DNA of 33,349 nucleotides, taken from contig DYJH01000002.1 of the NCBI GenBank assembly GCA_020723255.1, positions 26,979 to 60,327 on the forward strand, written 5' to 3'. Within the stretch, counting starts at the first letter, position 1; each line of letters begins with the position of its first letter. Of the stretch, positions 6,681 through 23,015 are shown piece after piece. Under the pieces are notes generated by a model that worked only from the letters and a program-made list of their open reading frames with translations, did no database searches and was not told the origin of the DNA. This DNA is from Desulfonema limicola (GTDB lineage: Bacteria; Desulfobacterota; Desulfobacteria; Desulfobacterales; RPRI01). The position numbers and the translations under genes were made by a program.

Positions 6681-6729
6681 TTCATATCTTTAGTTTAAGG
6701 CAATTTGTGCCGATTTATAGCTCAGCAGT

Positions 6730-6772
6730 TATAAAAGCTCTCTAAATGTAACTGACGGGGCGGAGCTTTATA
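6730..6772. other. Imperfect inverted repeat in the leader before the 6800 gene
   Basis: TATAAAAGCTC (6730-6740) can pair with GAGCTTTATA (6763-6772) with one bulged A and a loop of about 22 bases. It lies in the 119-base gap before the dehydrogenase, whose GGGGAAAGG ribosome binding site follows. A leader structure is possible; there is no run of T to make it a terminator. Confidence 0.35.
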
Positions 6773-6799
6773 CTCATGAGGGGAAAGGTGTAAAATTTT

Positions 6800-8485
6800 A
6801 TGGCCATTAAAAAAATGACAAAAAACAAAAAAACAATAGTTAATCACGAATCGGTCTCCGTTTCTCCCAGCGGTGAAGCCTTCCCTATCCCAGGTCAGGA
6901 AGACTACAAAAGAGAACTCGCCAGGTTAAAAACCCTTGTTGCCGGTCAGCGAAAGTTAAATCGTGAGATAGTAGTTGTTATGGGGGTAGGCTTTGTCGGA
7001 GCAGTAATGGCCGGAGTAATTGCAGATTCGGTTGATAAATCGAGCGGCAAACCCGGTAAGTTTGTAATCGGTATGCAGCGCCCCTCTCCCCGTTCTTTCT
7101 GGAAAATACCTTATATGAATCGTGGCATAGCGCCGGTAGAAGCTGAAGATCCTGAAGTTGCCCCGCTTATTGAACGCTGCGTAAAAAAGAAAAAAAATCT
7201 AATCGCAACTTTTACACATGACTCCCTGAGCCTGGCTGATGTTGTTGTCGTTGATGTTCAGTGCGATTATTTTAAAGAAACTCTCGGTAACTGCCGTGAA
7301 GGCCATGCCGAAATAGCGGCTCTTGAGGAGAGCCTCAAGATAATTGGTGAAAAAGTTAATCCTGATTGCCTTGTCCTTATTGAAACAACAGTTCCTCCGG
7401 GAACAACTGAATATGTGGCATATCCTATTGTAAAAAAAGCTTTCGAAAAAAGGGGCATTAAGTCGGAACCGCTGCTGGCGCATTCATATGAAAGAGTCAT
7501 GCCCGGGCGTGATTACGTTGCTTCCATCCGTGATTTCTGGCGTGTATGCAGCGGAATAAATGATATTGCAAAAAAGCGAGTTGAAAAATTCCTGAATGAA
7601 ATATTGAATACGGATAAGTTCCCTCTTACCGTTCTTGAACGCCCGATTGAAAGTGAAACCTGCAAAATTATAGAAAACTCTTATCGTGCAACTATACTGG
7701 CATTTCTCAATGAATGGAGCCTGTTTGCTGAACGCAATGGTGTGGATCTTATAAAAGTTATCAAGGCTATAAAAGTCAGGCCCACTCATAACAATATAAT
7801 ATTTCCGGGACCGGGGATAGGCGGTTATTGCCTTCCAAAAGACGGCGGGCTGGGAGTCTGGTCTTATCATACGCTTATGGGTTTCGATGACGATATATTC
7901 AAAATCACACCGCTTGCAATAGATATAAATGATACCCGTTCACTTCATGCTGCCGAGCTGGTCCGTGACGCCTTAAGAAATATGAGCAAAATTGTAGCAG
8001 CCTCAAAAGTTGCAGTTTTAGGAGCTTCCTACAGAGAAGATGTTGGAGATACCCGCTACAGCGGATCAGAAATTCTGGTGCGCAAACTCAGTGAGATGGG
8101 GGCAGAAATAGGCGTTCATGACCCCTATGTAAAACACTGGTGGGAACTTGAAAAGCAGGATATCTATCCTGCCCCCGGGCATTCATGGGCGCGTTTTTTC
8201 AGAAATCAGGATAAACTTTCAGAAACACATATAGAACATGACATTAAAAAAGTTCTGAAGGGGGTAGATGCTCTGGTTCTGGCAGTTCGCCATCAGGACT
8301 ATCTTAAACTTGATCCGGATGATGTTTTCAAAATGGTCGGCAAACCATTTGCTGTCATCGATTGCTTCGGCATCCTCGATGACCGGCAAATACAGCGTTA
8401 TTTCGAACTTGGCTGCGAAGTAAAAGGATTGGGCAGGGGGCATGTGAAAAGAATAAAGGATAATATAAAAAGGATAGTCCCATGA
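6800..8485 (+). CDS. UDP-glucose/GDP-mannose dehydrogenase family nucleotide-sugar 6-dehydrogenase, extended form
   Basis: A 561-residue NAD-dependent dehydrogenase, longer than the usual 420-450 of the family. After a charged N-terminal extension of about 55 residues comes the Rossmann motif GVGFVG (62-67). The central domain carries PIESETCKIIENSYRA, and the catalytic cysteine is C344 in GPGIGGYCLPKD. The GPGIGG form resembles UDP-HexNAc 6-dehydrogenases (WbpA/WecC type) more than plain UDP-glucose dehydrogenase, which fits a role in forming a HexNAc-uronic acid. This assignment is inferred. The stop overlaps the next start by 4 bases (ATGA, 8482-8485). Confidence 0.82.
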   Translation: MAIKKMTKNKKTIVNHESVSVSPSGEAFPIPGQEDYKRELARLKTLVAGQRKLNREIVVVMGVGFVGAVMAGVIADSVDKSSGKPGKFVIGMQRPSPRSFWKIPYMNRGIAPVEAEDPEVAPLIERCVKKKKNLIATFTHDSLSLADVVVVDVQCDYFKETLGNCREGHAEIAALEESLKIIGEKVNPDCLVLIETTVPPGTTEYVAYPIVKKAFEKRGIKSEPLLAHSYERVMPGRDYVASIRDFWRVCSGINDIAKKRVEKFLNEILNTDKFPLTVLERPIESETCKIIENSYRATILAFLNEWSLFAERNGVDLIKVIKAIKVRPTHNNIIFPGPGIGGYCLPKDGGLGVWSYHTLMGFDDDIFKITPLAIDINDTRSLHAAELVRDALRNMSKIVAASKVAVLGASYREDVGDTRYSGSEILVRKLSEMGAEIGVHDPYVKHWWELEKQDIYPAPGHSWARFFRNQDKLSETHIEHDIKKVLKGVDALVLAVRHQDYLKLDPDDVFKMVGKPFAVIDCFGILDDRQIQRYFELGCEVKGLGRGHVKRIKDNIKRIVP

Positions 8486-9777
8486 ACATAACTGTTGTCG
8501 GTACCGGATATGTCGGACTCGTTACAGGAACCGGTTTTGCAAACCTGGGCAACAAAGTAATCAGTTTTGATATCGATGAAGAGAAATTAGAAAATCTCTC
8601 AAAAGGAGAACTAACGATCTATGAACCTGGCCTTGAAGAGATTTTAAAAAGAAATATTAAAACAGGACGGCTTATCTTCACATCCGATCCCCAAAAAGCT
8701 GTCAGGGAATCCAATATAATATTAATCTGTGTAGGCACTCCCACTAACCACATACAGGAAGCCGATTTAACTTCGGTAGAAAATGTTGCAAAGCAGATAG
8801 GCAAGTTCATGAACGGATACAAGGTTGTTGTAAATAAAAGCACGGTGCCTGTTGGAACCGCTGAACTCGTTAGAAATATTATAAAGTCAAATCAGAAAAA
8901 AAAGATTGATTTTGATGTGGTCTCAAATCCCGAATTTTTAAGAGAAGGCGCTGCCTTAAAAGATTTTGAAAATCCCGACAGAATTATTATCGGAACAGAC
9001 AGTAAAAAGGCCGAAAAAATAATGGTTTCACTATACAGATCCGTTGCAAGAACCGGAAGGCCGATAATGCTTACCGATATAAAGAGTGCTGAAATAATAA
9101 AATATGCCTGCAATGCAATGCTTGCAACAAGAATAAGCTTCATGAATCAGTTATCTTTCTTGTGCGATAAAACCGGTGCAAACATCAGGGATGTTTCCAG
9201 AGGACTTGGACTTGACAGCAGAATTGGTCCGCGTTTTCTGCAAGCAGGCATAGGCTATGGCGGAAGCTGCTTTCCCAAAGATATAAAAGCGTTGATCTCC
9301 ACTTTAAAAAAGTATGAATGCGATTGTGATCTTTTTAAAGCGGTTGACAGAATAAACGAAAAGCAAAAAAGCGTAGTCGTGGAGAAACTCAAATCGGTTA
9401 TGAAATTAAACGGAGCTGTAATTGCTATATGGGGTCTTTCATTCAAGCCTAAAACAGACGATATAAGGGAAGCGCCGTCAATTAAAATAATCGGCGAGCT
9501 TCAAAATCTGGGTGCAGCAATTCACGCTTACGATCCCATTGCAACGAAAAACGCTGCAAAAGTTTTGAAAAAGGTTGAGCTTTTTGAAACACCTTATGAC
9601 ACTGTCAAAAACTGTGAAGCTCTTATAGTTGCAACCGAATGGGATGAATTCAGAAATGTTGACATGAAAGCCGTTAAATCGCTTATGAAAAAGCCCGTCA
9701 TTGTTGACGGAAGAAACATATACGATCCGGATGAACTGAAAAAACTTGGTTTCATATATTTAGGAATAGGAAGATAA
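8482..9777 (+). CDS. ugd: UDP-glucose 6-dehydrogenase
   Basis: A 431-residue enzyme that oxidises a UDP-hexose to the UDP-uronic acid in two NAD-dependent steps. The N-terminal Rossmann motif is GTGYVG (7-12), followed by EPGLEEIL, NKSTVPVGTA and NPEFLREGAA. The active-site cysteine is C263 in GGSCFPKD, and the C-terminal domain shows WGLSFKPKTDDIREAPS. Length and all motifs match Ugd. It is translationally coupled to the preceding dehydrogenase by a 4-base overlap. Another Ugd lies at 17129-18475, so three UDP-sugar dehydrogenases occur in the window. Confidence 0.93.
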   Translation: MNITVVGTGYVGLVTGTGFANLGNKVISFDIDEEKLENLSKGELTIYEPGLEEILKRNIKTGRLIFTSDPQKAVRESNIILICVGTPTNHIQEADLTSVENVAKQIGKFMNGYKVVVNKSTVPVGTAELVRNIIKSNQKKKIDFDVVSNPEFLREGAALKDFENPDRIIIGTDSKKAEKIMVSLYRSVARTGRPIMLTDIKSAEIIKYACNAMLATRISFMNQLSFLCDKTGANIRDVSRGLGLDSRIGPRFLQAGIGYGGSCFPKDIKALISTLKKYECDCDLFKAVDRINEKQKSVVVEKLKSVMKLNGAVIAIWGLSFKPKTDDIREAPSIKIIGELQNLGAAIHAYDPIATKNAAKVLKKVELFETPYDTVKNCEALIVATEWDEFRNVDMKAVKSLMKKPVIVDGRNIYDPDELKKLGFIYLGIGR

Positions 9778-9785
9778 ATAATATA

Positions 9786-9819
9786 GCTCATCAGTTGGTA
9801 AGTTCTTAAGCTGATGAGC
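9786..9819. promoter_or_regulatory. Inverted repeat upstream of vapBC (possible operator)
   Basis: GCTCATCAG (9786-9794) and CTGATGAGC (9811-9819) are perfect inverted arms with a 16-base loop, placed just after ugd and 17 bases before the vapB start. VapB antitoxins commonly bind palindromes near their promoter, so an autoregulatory operator is a reasonable inference. No T run follows it. Confidence 0.45.
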
Positions 9820-9836
9820 AAAAGACCGGAGGAATA

Positions 9837-10067
9837 ATGAACACAGCAAAAATTTTTAAAAGCGGAAATTCTCAGGCGGTAAGATTACCTAAAGAATTTC
9901 AATTTGATACGTCAGAGGTTCAAATATTTCGAAGAGGAGATGAGATCATTCTTAAAAAAAGTCCAGGAAATTTAGCCAAAGTATTTGAACTACTCACCGA
10001 ATTATCAGATGACTTTATGGAAAATGGCAGACAGCAGCCAACTGTTCAGGAACGAGAGGCATTCTGA
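9837..10067 (+). CDS. vapB: VapB-type antitoxin with AbrB/MazE-like DNA-binding domain
   Basis: A 76-residue antitoxin. The N-terminal 45 residues (TAKIFKSGNSQAVRLPKEF, then VQIFRRGDEIILK) form the swapped-hairpin AbrB fold of the VagC/VapB group, which would bind its own operator. The acidic C-terminal part should bind and block the PIN toxin. A GGAGG ribosome binding site lies about 4 bases before the ATG. The stop and the toxin start share one base (TGATG at 10065-10069). The pair sits between ugd and the 2-epimerase gene, interrupting an otherwise biosynthetic series. Confidence 0.9.
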   Translation: MNTAKIFKSGNSQAVRLPKEFQFDTSEVQIFRRGDEIILKKSPGNLAKVFELLTELSDDFMENGRQQPTVQEREAF

Positions 10068-10462
10068 TGTATATGCTCGATACTGATATTTGTATCTATA
10101 TTATTAAACATAAACCAACGAGCGTACAGGCGCGCTTGAAAATGCTGCAGCCGGGGCAGCTTGTCATGTCTGCCATAACATTTGCCGAGTTAGTGAATGG
10201 CGCAAGAAAAAGTAAACATATAGAGCCGAACATAGCTAAATTAAATGAATTGGCAGAAGTAATTGAAATATATCCTTTTGATAAAAAGGCTGCTGTTTTT
10301 TATGGTGATGTGCGTTCAGCCCTCGAAAAAAAAGGCGAAATAATAGGAAGCAATGACTTATTGATCGCTGCTCATGCTTTAAGCCTTAATTTGATTTTGG
10401 TTACAAACAATCAAAAAGAATTCAAACGAGTTGATGGACTAAGAATAGAAAACTGGGTATAA
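10067..10462 (+). CDS. vapC: VapC PIN-domain ribonuclease toxin
   Basis: A 131-residue PIN-domain toxin, expected to be a metal-dependent endoribonuclease held inactive by the upstream VapB. The catalytic acids are visible: D5 in MYMLDTDICIY, E41 in TFAELVNGA, and D97 in GSNDLLIAAHA. The following VTNNQKEF segment is the usual fourth motif. Length is normal and the frame is intact, so the module looks functional. An F1 repeat starts about 4 bases after its stop. Confidence 0.92.
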   Translation: MYMLDTDICIYIIKHKPTSVQARLKMLQPGQLVMSAITFAELVNGARKSKHIEPNIAKLNELAEVIEIYPFDKKAAVFYGDVRSALEKKGEIIGSNDLLIAAHALSLNLILVTNNQKEFKRVDGLRIENWV

Positions 10463-10466
10463 GAGG

Positions 10467-10499
10467 CCGGTTTACGGTTTACAGTTATCGGTTAACTGC
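10467..10499. repeat. F1 intergenic repeat copy
   Basis: CGGTTTACGGTTTACAGTT followed by ATCGGTTAACTGC, the F1 motif in the opposite sense to most other copies. It includes the short palindrome CAGTTA/TAACTG and separates vapC from the 2-epimerase gene. Confidence 0.7.
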
Positions 10500-10523
10500 T
10501 TAAGTCTATACATCTAAAACAAA

Positions 10524-11636
10524 ATGAATAATCTAAAACTCCTCCTGGTTGTCGGCGCAAGGCCGAATTTCATGAAAATAGCTCCTCTTCTGCATGAAAT
10601 CCGGAAACAGAATATTACCGAAGAACAAGGCAAAACCAATATTGCACATCTTCTGGTTCATACCGGTCAGCATTATGATGTAAAGATGTCTGAAGCATTC
10701 TTCAAGGAACTTGAAATCCCGGACCCGGATTTTAATCTGGAAGTTGGCTCAGGTTCTCATGCCGTACAGACGGCTGAAATAATGATAAGATTTGAAAAAG
10801 TGTGTCTTAAGGAAAGCCCCGACTGGATTATAGTTGTAGGCGATGTAAACTCAACTATGGCCTGTACGCTGGTTGCTGCAAAGCTGGGAATAAAAGTTGC
10901 GCATATCGAAGCCGGACTCAGAAGTTTCGACCGGTCAATGCCTGAAGAAATAAACAGGCTTGTTACCGATGCGTTAGCTGATCTATTGCTTACACCATCG
11001 GAAGATGCCGATCTGAATCTATTAAGAGAGGGTGTTCTTCCGGAAAAAATAAAGCGTGTTGGAAATATAATGATAGATACATTGGTATTTAATCTGAAAA
11101 AAGCAAGATCACTGAAGCCATATGCACAGTATGGGCTTGAAGAAAATAAATATGTTTTTGTCACTCTGCACCGCCCATCAAACGTTGACAATAAAGAATC
11201 TCTTGCCTTGATAATACAAAATCTTGCTGAGTTATCAAAAAAGCTGCCTGTTGTTTTCCCGCTGCATCCGCGAACAGAAAAAAACTTAAATCAATACGAT
11301 ATGTTTCCTTCTTTAGATAGGTATCCTCATCTCAAGCTCTGCAAACCCGTAGGATATTTTGAAAGCATAGGGCTTGCAGACAAGGCAAAATTCGTATTAA
11401 CTGATTCAGGAGGACTGCAGGAAGAAACAACTTTTCTTAAAGTCCCCTGTCTTACCTTAAGGCCAAATACAGAACGACCTGTTACTATTACTGTCGGCAC
11501 AAATAAACTTACCAGTGTTGATACTATTACAGACGATATAAACCGCATACTGGAAGGAAAGCATCAGCCCGGTGCAATTCCTGAACTCTGGGACGGCCGG
11601 ACAAGCAACAGAATCATTAAAATATTGAAAAATTGA
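10524..11636 (+). CDS. wecB: Non-hydrolysing UDP-N-acetylglucosamine 2-epimerase family (WecB/WbpI-like)
   Basis: A 370-residue epimerase that inverts C2 of a UDP-HexNAc or of a UDP-2,3-diacetamido-uronic acid through a 2-acetamidoglucal intermediate. Family segments appear in order: VVGARPNFMKIAPL, HTGQHYD, VVGDVNSTMA, HIEAGLRSFDRSMPEEINR, VTLHRPSNVDN, TDSGGLQEE and LRPNTERPVT. Length is normal. Given the two WbpB/D/E-like sets in the locus, a WbpI role (gluco to manno configuration) is as likely as WecB, and the sequence alone does not decide. It is the only such epimerase in the window. Decayed mntA coding sequence follows its stop directly. Confidence 0.93.
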   Translation: MNNLKLLLVVGARPNFMKIAPLLHEIRKQNITEEQGKTNIAHLLVHTGQHYDVKMSEAFFKELEIPDPDFNLEVGSGSHAVQTAEIMIRFEKVCLKESPDWIIVVGDVNSTMACTLVAAKLGIKVAHIEAGLRSFDRSMPEEINRLVTDALADLLLTPSEDADLNLLREGVLPEKIKRVGNIMIDTLVFNLKKARSLKPYAQYGLEENKYVFVTLHRPSNVDNKESLALIIQNLAELSKKLPVVFPLHPRTEKNLNQYDMFPSLDRYPHLKLCKPVGYFESIGLADKAKFVLTDSGGLQEETTFLKVPCLTLRPNTERPVTITVGTNKLTSVDTITDDINRILEGKHQPGAIPELWDGRTSNRIIKILKN

Positions 11637-11910
11637 TATTGATGTTTATCTAAGCGGCAAAAAACTTTCTGAAAATAGGCTACAAATTCTCGGAAATTTG
11701 ACGGACATTTTCAAAACCGACGAAATCGATCTTGTGATTTTAAATACAGCACCGCTTTCACTCCGTATGAAAATTTTAAAGAAAAAAAAAGTTCTTGCTG
11801 ATAATGCTCCTTTTTTTCGTAACTCTTACGAATCTATAACAATGAGGACATATTTTGATTTTTCAAAACTTGAAAAGCGCATACTTGAAAGGCAGTTTTT
11901 AAGTGGTTGA
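11635..11910 (+). pseudogene. mntA remnant: minimal nucleotidyltransferase antitoxin, N-terminus missing
   Basis: In the frame of 11635 the sequence reads DIDVYLSGKKL, then TDEIDLVILNTAPLSLRMKI, and ends with YFDFSKLEKRILERQFLSG. This matches the C-terminal two thirds of MntA-type minimal nucleotidyltransferases of HepT/MntA (type VII) TA systems. The DID of the active site is present, but the GS(Y/x)ARG motif that should lie just before it is not. No start codon fits, and the homology begins at the wecB stop, which suggests that recombination removed the 5' end. ATG 11698 would give only a 70-residue fragment. The original hepT start (GTG 11903) overlaps this stop. Confidence 0.7.
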
Positions 11911-12083
11911 TCATGTCTTGATTTAAAAAAAATATCCGAACTTGAGCAGTATCTGGCGCAACTCGAAGAGTTTTCAGACATATCAATTTCAACATATTCA
12001 AATGACTTGATCCTCAGATAGCAGCAAGCATGTTGCACAAAAATTTCAAAGATTTTGTTGAATTTAAATTAGAGTATAATTGA
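11903..12083 (+). pseudogene. hepT remnant: HEPN toxin with frameshift and internal deletion
   Basis: GTG 11903 gives MVDHVLI, then a stop inside an A-rich run. One frame over, the sequence continues KKISELEQYLAQLEEFSDIS and stops at 12018-12020. MLHKNFKDFVEFKLEYN (12030-12083) resembles the HepT C-terminus. The central region with the catalytic R-x4-6-H motif is absent, so the toxin is dead. This is the expected partner of the mntA fragment just upstream. Confidence 0.6.
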
Positions 12084-12252
12084 ACAAACAATTCAAGGGG
12101 ATGATATTGTAATAAATAAGGGGGGACAACCTCTCGTTAGGCTTGTCGCTTTTGCAAAACAGGATAGGAAACAGCGACTATTCGGAAGTGCGAAAGAATT
12201 AATCCGGTTCGCAGACAATTTTGATACACCTCTTGAAGACTTTAAAGAGTAA
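12073..12252 (+). pseudogene. Phd/YefM-type antitoxin remnant, N-terminus missing
   Basis: The frame from 12073 reads IEQTIQGDDIVINKGGQPLV, then RLVAFAKQ, and ends with KELIRFADNFDTPLEDFKE before TAA 12250-12252. This is the middle and C-terminal part of a Phd-family antitoxin. The N-terminal helix region and start codon are missing, as an in-frame stop sits at 12070-12072 and no ATG follows. No PIN toxin follows it, so the module has lost its partner. It overlaps the hepT remnant by 11 bases. Confidence 0.65.
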
Positions 12253-12403
12253 GTTCCGATACAATATTTTCAAAATATTCTGTGAAACTCATTTGGTAAA
12301 ATGCTGACTGCTATTCGTTTCTTATCAACTTACGAACTTATGAGCTATTTTTACCGTTAACCGTCTTCAGCCTTGCACCTGCCTGTGAAGCAGGATGTCA
12401 GTC

Positions 12404-12516
12404 TTTTAAGAATTTTTCCTTCTCAAAAATTCTTAAAAAAAACTCTGTGACTCTGTGCTCTCTGTGAGAGAAAAAAATATCTCGCAGAGCCCGCAAAGGT
12501 TGCAAAGATTTTTCAG
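12404..12516. repeat. F2 structured repeat, copy 1 (complete form)
   Basis: A composite repeat in four parts. First comes a perfect 14-bp hairpin, TTTTAAGAATTTTT (12404-12417) with AAAAATTCTTAAAA (12425-12438) around a 7-base loop. Next is the core CTCTGTGACTCTGTG (12443-12457). Then a 10-bp hairpin with one G-T pair, CTCTGTGAGA (12460-12469) with TCTCGCAGAG (12480-12489). Last is CCGCAAAGGTTGCAAAG. The DegT remnant starts immediately after. Eight same-orientation copies or parts occur in the window. Confidence 0.85.
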
Positions 12517-12752
12517 AACTTGAAGATGTCAGGGCAGTTTATCATCTCTATGTTGTGAGAGTTATGTTTACTTAGGTCATACGGAAAAAGATTTTCCAGA
12601 GGCCACAAACGCTTCACAGGAAATCCTATCTCTTCCGATGGTTCCGGAATTAACGGAAACTCAAATAGAGTATATAGCCGAAAAAATTAAACCGTTTGCT
12701 TTTTAGGCAGGATAAATTAGCCGCAGACATCCGCAGATAATTATGGATAGAA
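12513..12752 (+). pseudogene. DegT aminotransferase 3'-end remnant A with internal deletion
   Basis: GAACTTGAAGATGT and TATCATCTCTATG match the intact aminotransferase around 24400. The sequence then jumps about 100 bases to TTAGGTCATACGG (12572) and continues YLGHTEKDFPEATNAS to KIKPFAF and a stop at 12704-12706. The flank GGCAGGATAAATTAGCCGC after the stop is also shared with the gene ending at 24688. The join is out of frame, and no start or PLP lysine is present. The same deletion occurs in remnants B and C. Confidence 0.8.
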
Positions 12753-12815
12753 AGTAAACCGCCAATTGCCAATCGTTAGCAGATAGCCGTAAACTATCAA
12801 CAGATAACCTGTCTA

Positions 12816-12842
12816 TTGGTAACATAAATGTTGCTATATAAT
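12816..12842 (+). promoter_or_regulatory. Weak predicted promoter before the RelE/HigB-like toxin
   Basis: A perfect TATAAT (12837-12842) follows TTGGTA (12816-12821), with a 15-base spacer that is shorter than ideal. If used, transcription would begin almost at the ATG 12851, giving a very short or absent leader. Confidence 0.3.
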
Positions 12843-12849
12843 CTAAACC

Positions 12850-13185
12850 CATGATAAAATAAAAGAGTATATTGATCAATCTGGAAAGTCTCCTTTTTCC
12901 ATGTGGCATAATCGATTGGATTCAATTGCGGCTGCAAAGGTTTCTACAGCATTATATCGACTCGAGCAGGGTAATTTCTCTAATACTAAAGGGATCGGTG
13001 GTGGAATATTAGAATATAAAATTGATTTTGGCCCTGGCTATCGAGTGTATTTTGGAAAGGATGGTGAGGTTCTTGTAATCCTTCTTGGCGGTGGGACGAA
13101 GAAACATCAACAACGTGATATTGATGCCGCAAAAGCCTGTTGGAAAAATTATAAGGACCGAAAACGGGAAACAGATGAGGTATAA
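12850..13185 (+). CDS. RelE/HigB-like (Gp49 family) addiction-module toxin, uncertain or damaged N-terminus
   Basis: The protein matches the short RelE-superfamily killer proteins of the Gp49/HigB-like group, probably ribosome-dependent mRNA interferases. Key segments are WHNRLDSIAAAKVSTALYRL, EYKIDFGPGYRVYF and VILLGGGTKKHQQRDIDAA. The first ATG in the main frame is 12901, but homology starts earlier (KIKEYIDQSGKSPFS, from about 12856), which is the expected N-terminus. ATG 12851 lies one frame off and meets TAA after three codons. So either a one-base deletion has damaged the start, or a rare start (ATA 12859) or the internal ATG is used. It sits 2 bases before the antitoxin gene, in toxin-first order. 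Confidence 0.75.
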   Translation, partial: HDKIKEYIDQSGKSPFSMWHNRLDSIAAAKVSTALYRLEQGNFSNTKGIGGGILEYKIDFGPGYRVYFGKDGEVLVILLGGGTKKHQQRDIDAAKACWKNYKDRKRETDEV

Positions 13186-13187
13186 AA

Positions 13188-13538
13188 ATGGCTTTAACAA
13201 AAAATTTTCGTAAAACAATTTATGAACGGGCTAAGAGAGATGCTGCTTATCGTAAGGCAATGCTGTCTGAAGCAATAGATAGCTTATTATGTGGCGAGAT
13301 AGAAGTAGGAAAGGCCATCCTACGTGATTACATAAATGCGACTATAGGTTTTGGGACTCTTGGCGAAAAACTTCATAAACCAAGCAAAAGCCTTCACCGC
13401 ATGTTAAGCCCTGCGGGAAATCCAAAAACAAACAATTTTTTCGAGATTTTGAATTTTTTACAAAATAATGAAGGCGTGGATTTTACTGTAATTGCCAGAC
13501 ATCACCAGAGATCTGATCTTCACAATTCCGTATCCTGA
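13188..13538 (+). CDS. HigA-like antidote protein (Xre-type, COG3636-like)
   Basis: A 116-residue helix-turn-helix antidote paired with the preceding RelE/HigB-like toxin. Family features are ALTKNFRKTIYERAKRD at the N-terminus, GKAILRDYINATIGF, and LGEKLHKPSKSLHRMLSP as the helix-turn-helix. The normal family ends soon after GVDFTVIARH; the last dozen residues here (HQRSDLHNSVS) are an unremarkable extension. Only 2 bases separate it from the toxin stop. The frame is intact, so the antidote appears functional even if the toxin start is damaged. Confidence 0.85.
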   Translation: MALTKNFRKTIYERAKRDAAYRKAMLSEAIDSLLCGEIEVGKAILRDYINATIGFGTLGEKLHKPSKSLHRMLSPAGNPKTNNFFEILNFLQNNEGVDFTVIARHHQRSDLHNSVS

Positions 13539-13695
13539 TATCACTAACCTTTTTTGAAGTATATATTTTATTACAGTGTGGACATCTGTTATGTTTTTAA
13601 AAAATCTGGCAATTGCAAAAGTATTAACAAAAATCTTAAAGTTTCATCAAATCGGAAGAACAGCGGTTGGCCACTCAATACACAAAACGGTAACT
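13539..13695. other. Non-coding stretch with no recognised content
   Basis: An open frame of 72 codons runs from 13576 through this stretch into the DegT remnant, but its first 40 residues match nothing I recognise and its last part is DegT sequence. I see no RNA gene, promoter or repeat here. Confidence 0.4.
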
Positions 13696-13965
13696 AACAA
13701 ATACCTTGCAGGCACTGGCCTGATTACACCAATTGAACTTGAAGATGTTACAGCAGTATATCATCTCTATGTTGTGAGGATTATGCTTATTTAGGTCATA
13801 CGGAAAAAGATTTTCCAGAGGCCACAAACGCTTCACAGGAAATCCTATCTCTTCCGATGGTTCCGGAACTGACCAAAGCGCAAATTGAGTACATCGCAGA
13901 AAAAATTAAATCATTTGCTTTTTAGACAGCATAATTTAGCCGCAGACATCCACAGATAATTAATG
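13696..13965 (+). pseudogene. DegT aminotransferase 3'-end remnant B with the same internal deletion
   Basis: The sequence AACAAATACCTTGCAG to CATCTCTATG matches the intact gene from about 24363 (NKYLAxTGLITP, ELEDVTAVYHLY). It then skips to TATTTAGGTCATACGG (13791), continues to GCTTTTTAG (stop 13923-13925), and shares the TTAGCCGCAGACATC flank. More upstream DegT sequence is kept than in copies A and C, but the deletion joins the same two points. The stop arises shortly after the junction. Confidence 0.8.
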
Positions 13966-13973
13966 TTGGCAAA

Positions 13974-14012
13974 AAGAAAACTCCGTGCTTCTGCATACTC
14001 CGTGAGAGCTAA
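13974..14012. repeat. F2 repeat, copy 2 (diverged core only)
   Basis: CTCCGTGCTTCTGCATACTC followed by CGTGAGAG is a diverged version of the F2 core, in the same orientation as the other copies. It lacks the flanking hairpin arms. It separates the HigBA-like module and remnant B from the PIN module. Confidence 0.6.
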
Positions 14013-14027
14013 AAAACTTCAAGAAGA

Positions 14028-14056
14028 TTGACACATATGGGAATATGATAGATAAT
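14028..14056 (+). promoter_or_regulatory. Strong predicted sigma-70 promoter for the PIN TA pair
   Basis: A consensus TTGACA (14028-14033) is followed after exactly 17 bases by GATAAT (14051-14056), five of six matches to TATAAT. It lies about 90 bases before the antitoxin start and just after an F2 copy, so this TA module appears to carry its own promoter. Confidence 0.6.
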
Positions 14057-14145
14057 AAAAATTAAATAATAAAATCATCTCCAGATAAGTTTATTGATGA
14101 TAAGGAAACAAGGTTCGTAGTTGAAGAGAAATGCAGGAAAATAAT

Positions 14146-14358
14146 ATGCCAAAACTGAAAGACATTGATGTTAATTATGATCAGATAAAAGACTTGGTTT
14201 ATCAATTGGCCTTTGAAAAAAAGATGGCTCTTATAAAGGAAATTGTTAAGGATAGAGGCTATCAGGAAAGTTTTTACCATTTTACAGAGTCATTGGCAAA
14301 AAAGTATGATATCCCTGATATGAATGAATCCGAACTGGATGCCTATCTTCATGAGTAG
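14146..14358 (+). CDS. Putative antitoxin of a COG1569-type PIN module
   Basis: A 70-residue protein from ATG 14146 (MPKLKDIDVNYDQIKDLVYQ), rich in charged residues and ending ESELDAYLHE. It has no obvious DNA-binding motif that I can name. It resembles small antitoxins that precede COG1569 PIN toxins. ATG 14131 is also in frame; I prefer 14146 because AGGAAA lies 5-10 bases upstream. The stop lies 8 bases inside the toxin gene, so translation is coupled. Confidence 0.75.
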   Translation: MPKLKDIDVNYDQIKDLVYQLAFEKKMALIKEIVKDRGYQESFYHFTESLAKKYDIPDMNESELDAYLHE

Positions 14359-14797
14359 TCTTTCCCCCGTGGTTAATGGAAACACTTTGATCCCTAAGAT
14401 TGTAATCGATACAAACATTTATATATCAGCTATATTTTGGGGTGGAAAACCTCGAGAACTTGTTGATTTAGGACGAAGCGGACAAATATCGATATTTACA
14501 TCATTGGATATAGAGCAGGAGATATTCAGAAAACTAAAAACAAAATTCAGGCTTTCAGAAGAAGAATCAGCCCAAATACTTCTCGATTTTTCAACATTTA
14601 CAAATCTGGTTATTACCTCTCGAGGAATAACAGTGATTGATGATGACCCTGATGATAATAAATTCATTGAGTGTGCACTATCATCCATGTCCGGATTTAT
14701 TGTCTCAGGAGATAGACACCTTTTAAGACTGGAACATTACGAAGGAATAAAAATTCTAAGGGCCGCAGAATTTCTCTCAATCATATCAAAAGAATAG
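14351..14797 (+). CDS. PIN-domain toxin, COG1569 type
   Basis: A 148-residue putative ribonuclease toxin. Catalytic features are D20 in KIVIDTNIYISAIFW, the ELVDLGRSGQ and SLDIEQEIFRKL helices, and the acidic DDDPDDNKFIECAL segment followed by IVSGDRHLL. The longer in-frame start at 14324 would overlap the antitoxin more; ATG 14351 gives an 8-base overlap and a normal N-terminus. It is distinct in sequence from the VapC at 10067. An F1 repeat and an F2 part follow. Confidence 0.85.
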   Translation: MSSLSPVVNGNTLIPKIVIDTNIYISAIFWGGKPRELVDLGRSGQISIFTSLDIEQEIFRKLKTKFRLSEEESAQILLDFSTFTNLVITSRGITVIDDDPDDNKFIECALSSMSGFIVSGDRHLLRLEHYEGIKILRAAEFLSIISKE

Positions 14798-14825
14798 CTG
14801 AGTAAGAGCCAATATTTATAAAAAT

Positions 14826-14898
14826 CCGTTAACTGTGAACCGTCAACCGTAAACTGTCAACCGTCTTTCTTTGACTCTGTATTCTCTGCGAGAGATAA
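14826..14898. repeat. F1 repeat joined to F2 repeat copy 3
   Basis: F1 motifs (CCGTTAACTGTGAACCGTC, AACCGTAAACTGTCAACC) run from 14826 to 14865, followed by the F2 part GACTCTGTATTCTCTGCGAG up to about 14898. The F2 piece lacks the first CTCTGTG unit. It separates the PIN module from the DUF2283 gene. Confidence 0.7.
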
Positions 14899-14963
14899 AA
14901 AAGCTTAATGAAAATCGAACCAATTAAAATACTCTATCTTTTTCATGCATTAGGCTGAATTTT

Positions 14964-15212
14964 ATGAAGATAAAATATTCTGAAGAAGCTGATATCCTTT
15001 TAATAACTCTCAGGGATGGGACGCCTGAAGATTCCATAGATTTGAATGAGGGTATTATTTTACACCTTGATCATGAGGGGTTGCCCCTTGAGATTGAAAT
15101 CCTTGATGCCGCAAAACTGTCTATGCTGAAAGAAATAAGTGTGGCAACATCATTCGGAGAAGGTAAGACCTCGCGCAGCAAAGCTCTTTCATCCAATTCA
15201 AATAATATTTGA
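14964..15212 (+). CDS. DUF2283-family small protein
   Basis: An 82-residue protein whose first 50 residues (MKIKYSEEADILLITL, SIDLNEGIILHLD, PLEIEILDAAKL) match the DUF2283 family. These proteins often neighbour DUF4258-type or other TA-like partners and are suspected antitoxins, but their function is not established. No partner lies here: the gaps on both sides hold only F1/F2 repeats. It appears orphaned, or it has a partner not recognisable by sequence. Confidence 0.75.
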   Translation: MKIKYSEEADILLITLRDGTPEDSIDLNEGIILHLDHEGLPLEIEILDAAKLSMLKEISVATSFGEGKTSRSKALSSNSNNI

Positions 15213-15240
15213 TAACACAGCTGTCCAAAATTCAGAAAGA

Positions 15241-15370
15241 CTATTTAACCGGGGTCAAAAATTCTTAAAAAAACTCTGTGACTCTGTGCTCTTTGTGAGA
15301 GGTAAAAATGGTTTTTAAATTATTAACCGATAACCGTAAACCGTCTTTATAACCGTTGACTAAAAACTGA
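15241..15370. repeat. F2 repeat copy 4 followed by F1 repeat
   Basis: TATTTAACCGGGGTCAAAAA and ATTCTTAAAA are the right half of the F2 hairpin, followed by the core CTCTGTGACTCTGTG (from about 15274) to 15300. F1 motifs (ATTAACCGATAACCG, TAAACCGTC) run from 15321 to 15370. It lies between the DUF2283 gene and the DUF433/DUF5615 module. Confidence 0.8.
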
Positions 15371-15384
15371 AAAGAGGCTCTGAA

Positions 15385-15606
15385 ATGAACGAATATATTG
15401 AAGTTAACCACTTAATATGTAATGGCAAACCCGTCATACGCGGCACCAGAATTATGGTTAGAAATATATTAGGTATGATTGCCGGCGGCTACCATATTGA
15501 AAAGATTGTAGATGCATACCCCGAATTGACCATAGACATGGTTCGTGGAACCTTAGAATATGCTGCTGAAGTAATTGATGAAGAGCAGGTACTGGCACAT
15601 GCCTGA
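15385..15606 (+). CDS. DUF433 antitoxin (VapB45-like), first module
   Basis: A 73-residue DUF433 protein with the signature CNGKPVIRGTRIMVRNILGM and DAYPELTIDMVRGTLEYAAE. DUF433 proteins are winged-helix-like antitoxins of PIN-like DUF5615 toxins. AGAGG lies upstream of the ATG. The stop overlaps the toxin start by 8 bases, giving coupled translation in antitoxin-first order. Two related modules are at 25952-26454 and 26749-27344. Confidence 0.88.
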   Translation: MNEYIEVNHLICNGKPVIRGTRIMVRNILGMIAGGYHIEKIVDAYPELTIDMVRGTLEYAAEVIDEEQVLAHA

Positions 15607-15982
15607 CACTCCTTCACAATTATGCTTTTTACTTGATCAAAATATACCGATGGCAATTTCCGCATGGATGAAGTCAGAATATCCACATTGGATTATTCAA
15701 CATGTAAATGATTTGGAATTTCAGGGAAAATCTGACAGTTTTTTATATAAATGGGCACAGGAACGTTGTGCAATAGTTATCACATATGACGAAGACTTTG
15801 CCGATGCACGCATGTATCCTTTGGGAAAACATCATGGGGTAATCCGTCTACGTGTATGGCCTACCACAACCGAAAATACTCAGGAAGCGCTAAGACGTTT
15901 GCTAACTCAAGTGCACGAAACAGATATAATAAATAGCTTAATAATTATTGATAACAATAAAATCAGAATAAGAAAACTTTAA
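15599..15982 (+). CDS. DUF5615 PIN-like toxin (VapC45-like), first module
   Basis: A 127-residue PIN-like (Mut7-C related) toxin, predicted to be a nuclease. Features are FLLDQNIPMAIS near the N-terminus with the first catalytic aspartate, QGKSDSFLYKWA, VITYDEDFADARMYPL with the central acidic pair, and GVIRLRVWPTT. The C-terminal strand region (SLIIIDNNKIRIRKL) is intact, unlike the toxin at 26200. I use ATG 15599, because the longer in-frame start at 15575 overlaps the antitoxin further without a better ribosome site. Confidence 0.85.
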   Translation: MPDTPSQLCFLLDQNIPMAISAWMKSEYPHWIIQHVNDLEFQGKSDSFLYKWAQERCAIVITYDEDFADARMYPLGKHHGVIRLRVWPTTTENTQEALRRLLTQVHETDIINSLIIIDNNKIRIRKL

Positions 15983-15999
15983 TTATTAATGAACTTGCC

Positions 16000-16136
16000 A
16001 ACCATCAACCTATATTCTTCAAACGTCAACTGTAAACTGTAAACTGTAAACCGTTTTTAACCGTAAACATGGAACCCTTTAATAACTCTTAAAAAAAACT
16101 CTGTGACTCTGCGCTCTCTGTGAGAGATAAAATAAT
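16000..16136. repeat. F1 repeat plus F2 repeat copy 5
   Basis: F1 motifs (AACTGTAAACTGTAAACTGT and ACCGTTTTTAACCGTAAAC) run to 16070. The text TTTAATAACTCTTAAAA and the F2 core CTCTGTGACTCTGCG follow, to about 16136. The same F1-to-F2 junction recurs almost unchanged at 25660-25735, so the two are copies of one composite unit. Confidence 0.8.
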
Positions 16137-16155
16137 CTGACACTTTGATACTCAT

Positions 16156-17091
16156 ATGCCTATTCACAAAACCTACTATCTAATCAAATCATTCATGCCC
16201 CGTTGGCTGCAGATTTATATCCGCAGCAATGTGTTGCTAAAAAAGCGCCATAAATATAAAGATGTCTGGCCGGTAGATGAAAAAGCTGCAACACCTCCCG
16301 AAGGCTGGACAGGTTGGCCTGAGGGGAAAAAATTCGCTTTTGTATTGACGCATGATGTCGAAAATGCAAAAGGACACGATAATTGCAAAAAACTGGCTGA
16401 AGTGGATGAGAGCTTTGGTTTCAGGTCATCTTTTAATTTTGTTGCAAAAGACTACCCGGTTTCTGCAACACTTCGCCAGTATCTCACTGAACGGGGATTT
16501 GAGGTCGGCATACACGGCCTGCATCATGATAAAAATCCATTTCGGTCAAAAGCAATATTTCAGAAGCAGGCTGTTGAAATCAACCGCTGTTTAAAAGAAT
16601 GGAATTCAGTCGGCTTCCGGTGCCCGAGCATGTATCATAATCTTGAAATGCTTCATGATCTGAACATTGAATATGATGCATCTACATTTGATACCGATCC
16701 TTTCGAACCTCAGCCTGACGGCATGGGCACAATCTTTCCATTTAAAGTGCCGGGCAATTCTCAGCGGAATGGATATATCGAATTACCTTATACCCTGCCC
16801 CAGGATTTTTTGCTTTTTGTACTTATGCGGGAAAAAAATATAGATATATGGAAAAACAAACTGGACTGGATCGCAGAAAACGGAGGAATGGCCCTCCTAA
16901 TCGTTCATCCCAATTACATAAATTTCAATCAAAAAACAAATTACGATGAATATCCCGTCCGACACTATATCGAATTTCTGGAATACGTTAAATCCAGATA
17001 TAAAGGGCAATACTGGCACGCACTTCCGAAAGATGTGGCGCAATTTTATAGAGCACATTTTAAACGGAAACAACATGTTAGCAAAGATTAA
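16156..17091 (+). CDS. Polysaccharide deacetylase-family protein (NodB-like)
   Basis: A 311-residue carbohydrate esterase-4-like protein that could remove N-acetyl groups from a lipid-linked or polymeric sugar. The first motif is LTHDVE (H66, D67) in place of the classical TFDDG. The metal-binding motif is H120 and H124 in GIHGLHHD, followed by GFRCPSMYHN. The C-terminal third (NGGMALLIVHPNYI) fits the same branch. There is no signal peptide, so a cytoplasmic or membrane-face role is likely. Its exact substrate is unknown. Confidence 0.82.
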   Translation: MPIHKTYYLIKSFMPRWLQIYIRSNVLLKKRHKYKDVWPVDEKAATPPEGWTGWPEGKKFAFVLTHDVENAKGHDNCKKLAEVDESFGFRSSFNFVAKDYPVSATLRQYLTERGFEVGIHGLHHDKNPFRSKAIFQKQAVEINRCLKEWNSVGFRCPSMYHNLEMLHDLNIEYDASTFDTDPFEPQPDGMGTIFPFKVPGNSQRNGYIELPYTLPQDFLLFVLMREKNIDIWKNKLDWIAENGGMALLIVHPNYINFNQKTNYDEYPVRHYIEFLEYVKSRYKGQYWHALPKDVAQFYRAHFKRKQHVSKD

Positions 17092-17128
17092 TAATGAAAT
17101 ATAAAAGCAGACCCAATAAGGAGGATTC

Positions 17129-18475
17129 TTGGATATTTGCATTGTTGGAACGGGATATGTAGGGTTAGTAACTGCCGCATGTTTTGCCGAAACCGGCAAT
17201 GAAGTTCATTGTGTGGATAATAATATTGAGATCATTGATAAATTAAACAGCGGAAATATTCACATTTTTGAACCTGGCTTAGAAAGCATAGTAAAAAGAA
17301 ATGTTGAAAGCGGCAGACTATTATTTTCGACCGATCTATCTGCCGGGATAGACAATGCCCTGTTCATATTTATCTGTGTGGGTACGCCCCCAAATTCCGA
17401 AGGAGCATGTGACCTGACATATGTGAGGCAGGTTGCTTCACAGATAGGCAAACTTATAAATGAGTATAAAATTATTGTTAATAAATCAACTGTGCCGATT
17501 GGAACAGCCGATGAAGTCCGTAGCATAATTGAAAGCGAACTTGCAACAAGAGGTCTAAAAATTGAATTCGACGTTGTTTCCAATCCGGAATTTTTAAAAG
17601 AAGGGAGTGCGGTCAACGATTTTATGAGCCCGGATCGAATTATTATCGGCACAGATAATATCAGAACATTAAAGCTTCTTGAAACCTTGTATTCACCTTT
17701 TGCCCGCGCAAGGGATAAGATAATTACAATGGATACAGTCAGTGCAGAGATGACAAAATATGCTGCGAACACTATGTTAGCAACCAAAATTTCTCTGATG
17801 AATGAACTTGCTAATATTTGTGAAAAGGTTGGAGCAAATATAATGAGTGTGCGTACCGGAATTGGTTCCGACCGGCGTATCGGGTATAGCTTTATCTATC
17901 CTGGAATCGGTTTTGGAGGAAGCTGTTTTCCAAAAGATATCAGAGCACTTATCAATACTGCTCAATCTGTTGGAATTACACCTTATCTTATTTCAGCTGT
18001 CGATGCTGTTAATAAGTATCAAAAAACCGTTTTATCCAGTAAAGTTATAAGTTATTATGCAAACAAGGGCGGCATCAAGGGCAAGACATTAGCCTTATGG
18101 GGCTTGGCATTTAAACCAAATACAGATGATGTCCGCGAATCAGCTGCGCTTGACATCATTAAATCTCTAAATAGTGAAGGTATGAAAATTAAAGCTTTTG
18201 ACCCTGCCGCTAACGAAAATGCCCGAAACAGTCTCAAAGGCATCAGCAATATCGACTTCGTTAACGACCAATATACGACATTAGAAGGCGCTGATGCCCT
18301 GGCTATAATAACAGATTGGAATCAATTTAAAAATCCTGATTTTTTTAAAATTAAAGAGTTACTTACCGCTCCGGTTATTTTTGACGGGCGCAATTTATAT
18401 TCGCCTGAGTATATGAAATCAGAAGGATTTGAGTATTTCAGTATCGGGAGACCGGATGTTAACCGTCTTAGATAA
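17129..18475 (+). CDS. ugd: UDP-glucose/UDP-HexNAc 6-dehydrogenase, second Ugd
   Basis: A 448-residue dehydrogenase with the same architecture as the enzyme at 8482: GTGYVG near the N-terminus, EPGLESIV, NKSTVPIGTAD, NPEFLKEGSA, catalytic C266 in GGSCFPKD, and WGLAFKPNTDDVRES. The start is TTG 17129, supported by AGGAGG at 17119-17124; no ATG gives the full Rossmann fold. It probably supplies the uronic acid precursor for the second gene set. Sequence differences show it is a diverged paralogue of the 8482 enzyme, not a recent copy. Confidence 0.92.
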   Translation: MDICIVGTGYVGLVTAACFAETGNEVHCVDNNIEIIDKLNSGNIHIFEPGLESIVKRNVESGRLLFSTDLSAGIDNALFIFICVGTPPNSEGACDLTYVRQVASQIGKLINEYKIIVNKSTVPIGTADEVRSIIESELATRGLKIEFDVVSNPEFLKEGSAVNDFMSPDRIIIGTDNIRTLKLLETLYSPFARARDKIITMDTVSAEMTKYAANTMLATKISLMNELANICEKVGANIMSVRTGIGSDRRIGYSFIYPGIGFGGSCFPKDIRALINTAQSVGITPYLISAVDAVNKYQKTVLSSKVISYYANKGGIKGKTLALWGLAFKPNTDDVRESAALDIIKSLNSEGMKIKAFDPAANENARNSLKGISNIDFVNDQYTTLEGADALAIITDWNQFKNPDFFKIKELLTAPVIFDGRNLYSPEYMKSEGFEYFSIGRPDVNRLR

Positions 18476-18528
18476 AACCCAATATTTAAAAATGATGGAC
18501 TCTTAATCAGAAGATAGGGAAAAAACAG

Positions 18529-20154
18529 TTGATCGGTGTTATAACAAAAGAATCTGAATATGATATTGTCACCGAGTTTTTTCAGTTGTTTAAAACTCCC
18601 TGGGAATTTTATATTGAAAATAAAAACTATGACGTAGTTATTGTTACTTCCGAAGAGCTTCCTGTAATCAACGCCAACTTCATAATATTTTATAATGGTT
18701 CCCCAACTCGGTTTGATTCTGAACAAATGCTTGAACCAAAAGTTACAAGTGAAAACTTCATTTCTTCGGATCAGGATTTGCCTTTTCCAGTCTACGGGCA
18801 TATGTTGACGTTTCGCAAGCAGGAGCAAACTTGGCTTACTATAGAATTGTCAAAAGAAGCTGTTGCAATAGAAGTTAGCTATCATGACAAGAAGGTAATT
18901 CGCATCGGTTTCGACCTGTTTCATGAAGTTTACTTTCTTCTGACATCCGGTCAACCTGTTGAATATTCGCATATCCTGACTCTTGATTTGCATATATCCA
19001 TCCTGCGTGAATTGATTTTAAAATCTGGCATGCCACTGGTTGAGATTCCACCCATGCCAGCCGGTTATAATTTTGCTTGTTGCCTTACCCATGACATTGA
19101 TTTTGCGGGAATCAGAAGACATAAATTTGATCATACCATGTTGGGTTTTCTTTACCGCGCATTTTTCGGTTCTTTACAAAATGTTTTTAAAAAGAATCGA
19201 CCGTGGCGCAAACTCTGTAAAAATTGGCAGGCTGTTTTTATGCTTCCTTTTGTTTATATGGGCCTTGCAGAAGATTTTTGGATGAAGTTCGATCGTTATA
19301 TTGAGATTGATGATTTTCATTCCACATTTTTTATAATTCCTTTTAAGAATCTTGCAGGAATCAAGCTTGCGGGCAATAAACATACATTAAGAGCCACAAA
19401 GTATGATATTTTTGATATTGTAGTTGAAATACGAAATTTTCTATCGCAAGGCTGCGAAATCGGTGTTCATGGAATTGATGCATGGATAGATATTGAAAAA
19501 GGACGTACAGAATTTGAGCGGATTTATGAAGTAACCGGAATGTCTGAAGTGGGCGTGAGGATGCATTGGCTCTATTTCAATGATAAGTCTTATCATATTT
19601 TAGAAAAAGCCGGATTCCATTATGATTCATCTTTTGGATATAATGATGGAGTAGGCTATAAAGGTGGAACTACGCAGGTCTTTCGCCCGATAGGATTGAA
19701 TACATTGCTGGAACTCCCGATGCATATCCAGGATACTGCTCTTTTCTATCCGGATCGCATGGGTTTAACTGAAGAAAATGCATGGCCGTTAATAAATAAT
19801 CTTTTGGAAAAAGCGAAGCAATACGGCGGCGTTTTGACTATCAACTGGCATGACAGGAGTTTAGCCCCGGAGAGATTATGGGGTAATTTTTACATCGATC
19901 TTGTTGAAACTTTGAAAAATTCCAAGGCATGGCTTGATACAGGTTCACAAATTATCAGATGGTTTAATAAGAGACGTTCTGTTCAGTTTAAAGAAGTCGG
20001 TTTTTTGAAGGACAAGATAAAATTGTCTATCGAAAGTAAACATGTTGATGATATTCCTGATCTTATAGTTAGAATTCATAGACCTGATGCCGACACAAAC
20101 AAACACATTGATATTCCCTTTGCAAATGACTTACAAGCCGAATTTCCAATATGA
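18529..20154 (+). CDS. Large polysaccharide deacetylase-like protein
   Basis: A 541-residue protein with a deacetylase-like core preceded by about 170 residues of unassigned sequence. The core motifs are LTHDIDFAG (H188, D189), GVHGIDAW (H314), VRMHWLYF and TINWHDRS. The second metal-site histidine expected four residues after H314 is not present, so the fold may be divergent or the metal may be bound differently. The TTG start follows AGGG at 18514-18517, and no better start is visible. The family occurs in exopolysaccharide loci. Its activity is inferred and less certain than for the other two deacetylases. Confidence 0.7.
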   Translation: MIGVITKESEYDIVTEFFQLFKTPWEFYIENKNYDVVIVTSEELPVINANFIIFYNGSPTRFDSEQMLEPKVTSENFISSDQDLPFPVYGHMLTFRKQEQTWLTIELSKEAVAIEVSYHDKKVIRIGFDLFHEVYFLLTSGQPVEYSHILTLDLHISILRELILKSGMPLVEIPPMPAGYNFACCLTHDIDFAGIRRHKFDHTMLGFLYRAFFGSLQNVFKKNRPWRKLCKNWQAVFMLPFVYMGLAEDFWMKFDRYIEIDDFHSTFFIIPFKNLAGIKLAGNKHTLRATKYDIFDIVVEIRNFLSQGCEIGVHGIDAWIDIEKGRTEFERIYEVTGMSEVGVRMHWLYFNDKSYHILEKAGFHYDSSFGYNDGVGYKGGTTQVFRPIGLNTLLELPMHIQDTALFYPDRMGLTEENAWPLINNLLEKAKQYGGVLTINWHDRSLAPERLWGNFYIDLVETLKNSKAWLDTGSQIIRWFNKRRSVQFKEVGFLKDKIKLSIESKHVDDIPDLIVRIHRPDADTNKHIDIPFANDLQAEFPI

Positions 20155-20194
20155 TGATACCGATATAAGGTTTTAATTCAATGAGGAATAATTT

Positions 20195-21376: not shown

Positions 21377-21385
21377 GAAGAAAGT

Positions 21386-21470
21386 GAATAGTAAATAGTG
21401 ACGGGTGACAGATAGACCTACACTTCTCGTCACACGTGACTCGTCACTATTTACCAGTTATCATTACGGA
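21386..21470. repeat. F3 inverted repeat, copy 1
   Basis: GTAAATAGTGACG (21391-21403) and CGTCACTATTTAC (21442-21454) form a perfect 13-bp inverted repeat. The loop contains further GTGAC/GTCAC units. F3 is built from GTAACGAG- and GTGACGGG-like words and is found only around the second gene set. Confidence 0.8.
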
Positions 21471-21477
21471 GACTGAT

Positions 21478-22542: not shown

Positions 22543-22543
22543 T

Positions 22544-23008: not shown

Positions 23009-23015
23009 AATTAAT

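Follow-up and report, generated by a model that had tools for sequence, protein, structure and literature searches.

We analysed a 33,349-nt stretch of the Desulfonema limicola assembly GCA_020723255.1 (contig DYJH01000002.1, positions 26,979–60,327, forward strand; hereafter the window), where copies of a repeat, F2, alternate with small toxin–antitoxin (TA) units in a left and a right array. F2 is the outer arm, with three CTCTGTG heptads and a sharp end, of a structured element of ~98 nt that we call E. Within the genus, E occurs mostly in same-strand arrays in a polysaccharide locus (eight copies in the window), and module content and order differ between the window and the corresponding locus of a sister species (genome G005). 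On balance, we lean toward a reading in which E is a non-autonomous mobile repeat, recombination between direct copies duplicates, deletes, and reorders the intervals, and TA-bearing intervals persist because cells that lose a TA module are penalized.

The element consists, in order, of a small hairpin H0, the motif TGKCAG, a hairpin H1 whose loop reads CCTCTCA, and the three heptads. In many copies, H1 lies 5′ of the arm and is preceded by TGGCAG or TGTCAG and by H0. The 3′ end of E is sharp, with ~2 bits per base through GAGAG and ≤0.2 from +33 onward. The preliminary description of the window, made from its letters alone, had proposed structured boundaries between modules, which both unselected counts and covariation in H1 bear out. 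A stem of ≥10 bp is found in the 50 nt 5′ of the arm in 58 of 120 copies, versus 149 of 1200 random 50-mers. The CCTCTCA motif occurs within the same distance in 35 of the 120 unselected copies, and in 30 of these a perfectly paired stem of ≥8 bp encloses the loop; at other positions of these loci, such a stem surrounds 16 of 89 CCTCTCA sites. We then aligned 50 copies chosen for their hairpin, 11 from the genus and 39 from far genomes, the latter picked by a stem of ≥13 bp (42 of 120 passed, 39 used). Both sides have changed in 13 of the 14 H1 pairs, and the covariation score for H0 and H1 together is 0.601, versus 0.195 (standard deviation 0.012) for shuffled and ≤0.163 for slid alignments. 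Paired cells make up 95.4% of H1, a value inflated by the choice of copies with a long stem, and H0 is weaker (76.6%). Because few H1 cells are G-U (6/693), the stem seems to be conserved at the DNA level. We rejected E as an RNA gene, since Rfam models at gathering score gave two tRNAs only in eight sources and no match to E.

In the window, F2 cores start at 12443, 13981, 14867, 15274, and 16099 in the left array and at 25709, 26626, and 27474 in the right array, all on the plus strand, like the genes listed below. The single orientation first described for the five left copies thus extends to the three right ones. A 28-base core with ≤3 mismatches has six matches in the window's own genome (G000; 3.67 Mb, 217 contigs, 87% complete), every one inside the window, versus none for the backwards control; 13981 and 14867 are degenerate copies with 8 and 5 mismatches out of 28. 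The count of eight copies stands, with none elsewhere in the genome by the core pattern. A covariance model of E (98 positions) yields nine matches in this genome at an expectation value ≤0.001; seven of them fall in the window, and the other two, on contigs C41 and C83, are weak. The proposed fold of two hairpins around an unpaired core holds for the 12443 copy; the right arm, R, is detected at only four of the eight window copies (12443, 25709, 26626, and 27474). Each of the six intervals between adjacent F2 copies of the same array holds one TA or TA-like unit, a count that leaves out the 9.6-kb gene block between the two arrays (16127–25708).

The G005 genome contains 24 F2 pattern matches, all on one strand, and 46 matches to the E model, which lie on C30, C37, and C39 apart from a few on C38, C79, and C85. 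The minus strand carries some of the model matches, among them inverse ends (R-H3) found on C39. The 29 arms on C30, C37, and C39 delimit 26 intervals, of which 11 are empty (78–143 nt) and 15 are filled. TA families score over the Pfam cut-off in nine filled intervals, one of which also holds ugd (lone MNT genes counted as TA-like). Four more contain weaker or layout-only TA-like units, namely a HicB-like match under the cut-off, DUF1902, a DUF7718/DUF5647 pair, and an unassigned open reading frame (ORF) with a DUF433 fragment. The remaining two consist of one with a GxxExxY gene (L040 2066–2446) and one with fragments only. Two intervals hold two modules each, and in one of them a shortened F2 at L040 3376, below the scan threshold and seen by eye, divides the pair. 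One-for-one alternation of F2 and TA units thus holds in the window but not as a strict rule.

The backbone of the locus is colinear between the window and G005 at 79–85% identity, with 1725–9776 matching L039 95–8659 and 16081–17047 matching L040 4309–5260. The modules between ugd and the deacetylase-like gene differ, which supports the expectation of varying module content and order, seen here between species. Several window modules are displaced in G005: MazE corresponds to L040 525–817, an MNT-like stretch to L039 10578–10936, and a VapB-like ORF to L040 2746–3026, and the HicAB pair, which the window has in its right array, directly follows ugd. Two units stand in G005 between the tviB-like gene and ugd, which are adjacent in the window. 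The HicAB homology stops at L039 9209, with 4 nt left to the TGTCAG of an element in G005, and the deacetylase homology block starts inside the element 5′ of the deacetylase-like gene. A third genome, G007, lacks 8472–16145 of the window, the flanking matches lying 18 nt rather than 7.7 kb apart, by loss or as an older state. A short array further on in G007 consists of E, an unassigned ORF with ParE (profile 1–52 of 89), F2, and an MNT gene.

Gene remnants accompany the modules. A wecB-like gene fragment is present in the G005 array, and three partial copies of the 3′ end of degT in the window have one internal deletion in common relative to the degT gene at 23537–24688, as read from the sequence. 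They lie at 12516–12743, at 13735–13962, and, after the last F2, at 27554–27733, all on the plus strand. The DegT remnants noticed earlier are real. The wecB-like and degT fragments mark lost genes.

The favored reading would run as follows. E may have multiplied in the genus, mostly in one orientation, inside the polysaccharide locus, and homologous recombination between direct copies would duplicate, delete, and reorder the DNA between them. TA-bearing intervals would persist, and other genes would decay to remnants or shrink to arm-to-arm units of ~165 bp. Mobility of E could possibly be served by a GxxExxY protein (below). TA modules would persist because their loss is costly, as proposed for integron arrays; integron-type recombination is not needed here. 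The reading builds on the observed structure and spread of E, the differing module order between species, the G007 locus without the segment, and the remnants; movement of E, homologous recombination as the agent, and TA addiction as the filter are inferred. In its favor, wherever one gene of a pair was broken relative to an intact relative, it was the toxin-side gene, with the partner open, in 4 of 4 compared cases (HicA of the window, two PIN genes of G005, and DUF5615 of G008). The locus is a case of TA modules gathering between structured repeats that lack recognizable attC sites.

Several observations weigh against this reading. Eleven of the 26 G005 intervals are empty, and by eye E on C38 and C85 of G005 adjoins non-TA genes, exosortase-like and cyclophilin-like. 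Breakpoints had been expected to fall in F2, and the evidence is mixed: the HicAB boundary lies close to an element and the deacetylase boundary inside one, but two PIN toxin deletions have ends inside genes. No target-site duplication was recognized, by eye, at the insertion between the tviB-like gene and ugd in G005 compared with the window. The tally of broken toxin-side genes is small and not systematic, and the toxin genes are the longer ones. Addiction did not protect several of the modules, as their broken toxins show. The comparison covers one genome per species, and no within-species event was seen in it.

F2 extends well beyond the genus. Copies occur in at least 116 stretches of named genomes; among 80 of their titles, 74 name Desulfobacterota-type groups or 'Deltaproteobacteria', three give Proteobacteria/Pseudomonadota only, and three are Thermomicrobiaceae, Neomarinimicrobiota, and Fermentibacteria. 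A covariance-model search of the 10 genus genomes recovers E in 7, with weak matches in several; the core pattern (≤3 mismatches) found F2 in four of 59 relatives and, judged by that model, misses diverged copies. With one mismatch allowed, the motif has 3 to 39 matches in each of 14 other genomes, on both strands in 13 of them; the exception, G071, has three matches on one strand. Of 134 motif matches in the far loci, 18 lie at contig edges, 17 overlap an ORF of ≥100 aa, and 99 are intergenic according to a simple gene caller. The left arm, L, points at a gene 3′ end in 70 of the 99. Far ORFs matching any of 35 array proteins number 12 of 1046; of the 291 ORFs no more than 400 bp from a motif, 4 match, and of the 755 more distant ones, 8. 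All four near matches belong to the GxxExxY query, and none of the seven matches to other queries is near a motif. No TA enrichment is seen near F2 outside the genus in this test, which detects only relatives of the 35 array proteins. The idea that F2 is a TA-specific boundary is thus not supported, the copies outside the genus being dispersed; of the two outcomes that the preliminary description named as counting against it, the first, wide occurrence without TA enrichment, is seen here.

The association with GxxExxY genes suggests a candidate for an enzyme that might move E. PF13366 (GxxExxY) has matches in 55 of 148 genomes of the phylum, from which we took the best match per genome at 30 loci and scored 28. 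Inverted similarity between the 260-nt flanks (score ≥40) is found at 13 of the 28 loci, compared with 10 of 756 mispaired flanks (1.3%), 0 of 29 HicA loci, 0 of 28 integrase loci, and 2 of 25 Y1 loci. With 600-nt flanks the counts are 15/28 for GxxExxY, 0/29 for HicA, 0/27 for integrase, and 4/24 for Y1. Heptad triples occur at 9 of 30 GxxExxY loci and at none of 30 loci in each of the HicA, Y1, and integrase sets. L271, which belongs to a genome of the same order as the window, has a GxxExxY gene flanked on either side by CCTCTCA hairpins in inverted orientation, each followed by CTTTGCG/CTCTGCG heptads, and these flanks are the same two-part end as that of E. Among far loci that bear CTCTGTG, four of five GxxExxY genes are ≤100 bp from an arm (P = 0.0045), and one of the four, in L066, is enclosed by inverted arms that span 459 bp from outer end to outer end. 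Viral contigs gave one GxxExxY locus. The proteins retain invariant D and ExK residues in 10 aligned sequences, and one GxxExxY gene resides in the G005 array itself, as noted above.

This architecture suggests a link between F2 and GxxExxY, and we tentatively propose that E may be a non-autonomous derivative of a new small mobile element. The autonomous version would encode, between inverted ends of hairpin plus heptads, a GxxExxY (PDDEXK_3) nuclease that nicks or cuts these ends and moves them in trans. More broadly, and with similar reserve, tandem-heptad arms with a subterminal CCTCTCA hairpin could delimit small mobile elements of an undescribed class, with a GxxExxY PD-(D/E)XK nuclease as the putative resident enzyme, and F2 a non-autonomous member that in the genus would serve as an integrase-free platform collecting and reshuffling TA modules. 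We consider both formulations possible rather than probable. Direct flank similarity also reaches ≥40 at 10 of the 28 loci, the CCTCTCA hairpin is present at 1 of 30 sampled GxxExxY loci, and the sole PF13366 gene of the window's own genome (L273) has different heptads nearby. S23/four-helix (PF05635) loci show inverted arms, with tandem heptamers, at a comparable frequency (12/28 versus 1.1% mispaired), and the GxxExxY nuclease is thus not the sole resident. Excision, insertion, and enzyme activity are all putative, and the proposal is built on architecture. In the library searched, no listed title or opening of an abstract gives an account of E or of a link between heptad arms and GxxExxY. 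The link is concrete and testable and would connect a widespread protein family of unknown function with intergenic repeats of a widespread kind. Should it hold, it would account for many of the tandem heptad repeats seen in environmental genomes and provide a route to TA arrays besides integrons. A general rule that TA genes are bounded by such repeats was discarded, with inverted flanks at 0 of 29 HicA loci and direct similarity at 8 of 29 (600-nt flanks).

E could instead be an ordinary extragenic repeat, like repetitive extragenic palindromic (REP) sequences or bacterial interspersed mosaic elements (BIMEs), that by chance lies between TA genes, the array being a passive collection between operons. 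Like REP-type repeats, E is multicopy, mostly extragenic, and hairpin-forming, and it shares with REP sequences, their hairpin-forming doublets (REPINs), and BIMEs inverted pairs, dispersal, and frequent placement at gene 3′ ends. The copies outside the genus fit this description, being dispersed, with L facing a gene 3′ end in most intergenic cases and TA genes not enriched nearby. We nonetheless judge it improbable, because in both the window species and G005 the copies cluster in one locus with a strong strand bias, because TA units occupy all six intervals of the window and at least nine of the 15 filled ones of G005, and because module order is species-specific. E also differs from REP/REPIN sequences in that its H1 stem varies between copies within one genome and in that its occurrence is uncorrelated with that of the REP-associated tyrosine transposase (RAYT). 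PF01797, the Y1/RAYT family, is present in 12 of 13 genomes, and the lone genome without it, G067, has 21 F2 matches; we rejected RAYT/Y1 as the mover of E, as G067 is the reverse of G001, which has Y1/RAYT but one weak E match.

Least probable is that the array is a cluster of attC sites lacking a nearby integron integrase (CALIN) and served by an IntI encoded elsewhere in the genome; the same-strand structured repeats, small modules, and TA genes of the array, together with integron integrases in both G000 and G005, speak for it, but a home-made search finds no attC site in the arrays and no excess over shuffled sequence, and none of four intI stretches has an F2-like heptad triple. We do not class the array as an integron or a CALIN. 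The integrase scan covered 10 ORFs of 20 matches (8 in G000, 12 in G005) and identified at least three integron integrases in G000 (C2:17979, C20:8755, and C192:1530) and at least one in G005 (C33:2612), with TIGR02249 scores of 382–443 bits against a cut-off of 265, all off the array contigs. No PF00589 match is found on the window's contig (C85), so the earlier remark that no integrase is visible holds for the contig but not for the genome. A strict attC search (RYYYAAC/GTTRRRY boxes with paired inner arms) gave no site in any of eight stretches, those with intI included. When relaxed, the search still left the array parts (window, L039, L040, and L042) without a site and gave one canonical-looking site on the intI contig C20 (L364 4719–4782); the detector is home-made and lacks a proven positive control. 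A conserved CCTCTCA loop and a heptad arm are not known as attC features. The cassette-like layout first suggested survives in its structured boundaries and variable modules, but not in a TA-specific boundary or strict alternation. Sedentary chromosomal integron and CALIN arrays, as reviewed in PMC8618304, consist of tandem small modules, TA among them, between structure-conserved sites, and the window array is similar in these respects; it differs in the absence of attC-like sites and of PF00589 noted above and in that F2 is also dispersed elsewhere.

Two further repeat types invite comparison. In Geobacter metallireducens, multicopy tandem hepta- and octanucleotide repeats paired on opposite strands at variable distance, and thus similar to E, are annotated as putative global regulator (IHF/HU) sites (PMC2700814); the accessible part of that report describes no conserved-loop hairpin, GxxExxY link, or TA-array link, unlike what we find for E. 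Miniature inverted-repeat transposable elements and mobile insertion cassettes are short non-autonomous repeats with inverted arms and sometimes passenger genes, traits that E would share, but E has no proven transposase with matching ends and no recognized target duplication. Candidate terminal inverted repeats are the R-H3…H1-L units in L042, where model matches fall on both strands; in the window, R is found at four of the eight copies. Because these units place modules between them, we dropped a model with the TA modules inside the loop of a single palindrome.

The individual copies of E and F2 in the window, all on the plus strand, are as follows. The fullest left-array copy spans 12376–12508 and comprises H0, TGTCAG, H1 (12404–12438), L (12442–12471), and R (12480–12508). 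Left arms are located at 13980–14009 and 14866–14895 (both degenerate), at 15273–15302, and at 16098–16127, the last directly 5′ of the deacetylase-like gene, where G005 has one too. In the right array, left and right arms form a palindrome at 25708–25777. Two copies have, as read from the sequence, a nested hairpin inside the H1 loop, at 26522–26691 (L 26625–26654, R 26663–26691) and 27371–27539 (L 27473–27502, R 27511–27539). This nested hairpin of ~40 nt (CCCCGTTAAAT...ATTTAACCGGGG) is seen in the H1 loop of some E copies, in the window at 26551–26620 and 27400–27465, and similar letters occur in L059, L078, L092, L094, and L095.

The TA units of the window are likewise on the plus strand. 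The first left interval contains a RelE/ParE-type toxin gene at 12901–13185 (TIGR02683, expectation value 2.5e-27, match starting at profile position 12 of 95) followed by an ORF at 13188–13538 that matches no family and is an antitoxin by position only. The RelE part of the unit originally described as RelE/HigA-like is thus upheld, and the HigA label is positional only. In the second interval, a VapB15-like ORF (14131–14358) precedes a PIN toxin gene (14324–14797; PIN_3, TIGR00305), so that the toxin of the supposed PIN pair is secure and its partner a weak match (20 bits against a cut-off of 80). The third and fourth intervals, identified at first as DUF2283 and DUF433/DUF5615, match these families, with a DUF2283 gene at 14964–15212, beside which no partner is seen, and DUF433 (antitoxin-like, 15385–15606) with DUF5615 (PIN-like and toxin-like, 15575–15982). 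A separate promoter for at least one unit could correspond to one consensus match at 14028 (11/12), but promoter-like sites overall are at chance level (17 versus 14.5, standard deviation 4.5). Just before the 25709 copy, 25051–25502 holds an upstream ORF without a Pfam match (91% identity to its G005 counterpart) and a frameshifted HicA gene, the frame changing between 25389 and 25392. The right intervals contain DUF433 with a short DUF5615 (25922–26454; profile 1–66 of 110) and DUF5615 with DUF433 (26638–27344), whose given ORF start falls in the F2 arm, the true start being probably later.

Contig C79 of G005 has a TA-rich stretch (L298 3774–10453) with BrnT, HEPN, HicA, and PIN over the cut-off and five E matches on both strands; its HicA gene stands between two weak plus-strand E matches. 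Closely similar HicA genes occur in differing settings at L040 3702–3938 in G005 and L233 3865–4080 in G008. In the window, an S23-type four-helix-bundle gene (23056–23409, TIGR02436) lies between inverted tandem octamers (23018–23500). Tandem AACCGTA/AACTGTA heptamers make up a second repeat family, which adjoins several F2 copies and is found at 5580–5645, 14824–14882, 15304–15348, 16000–16058, 24732–24776, and 25563–25675; it resembles the arms around S23 genes elsewhere.

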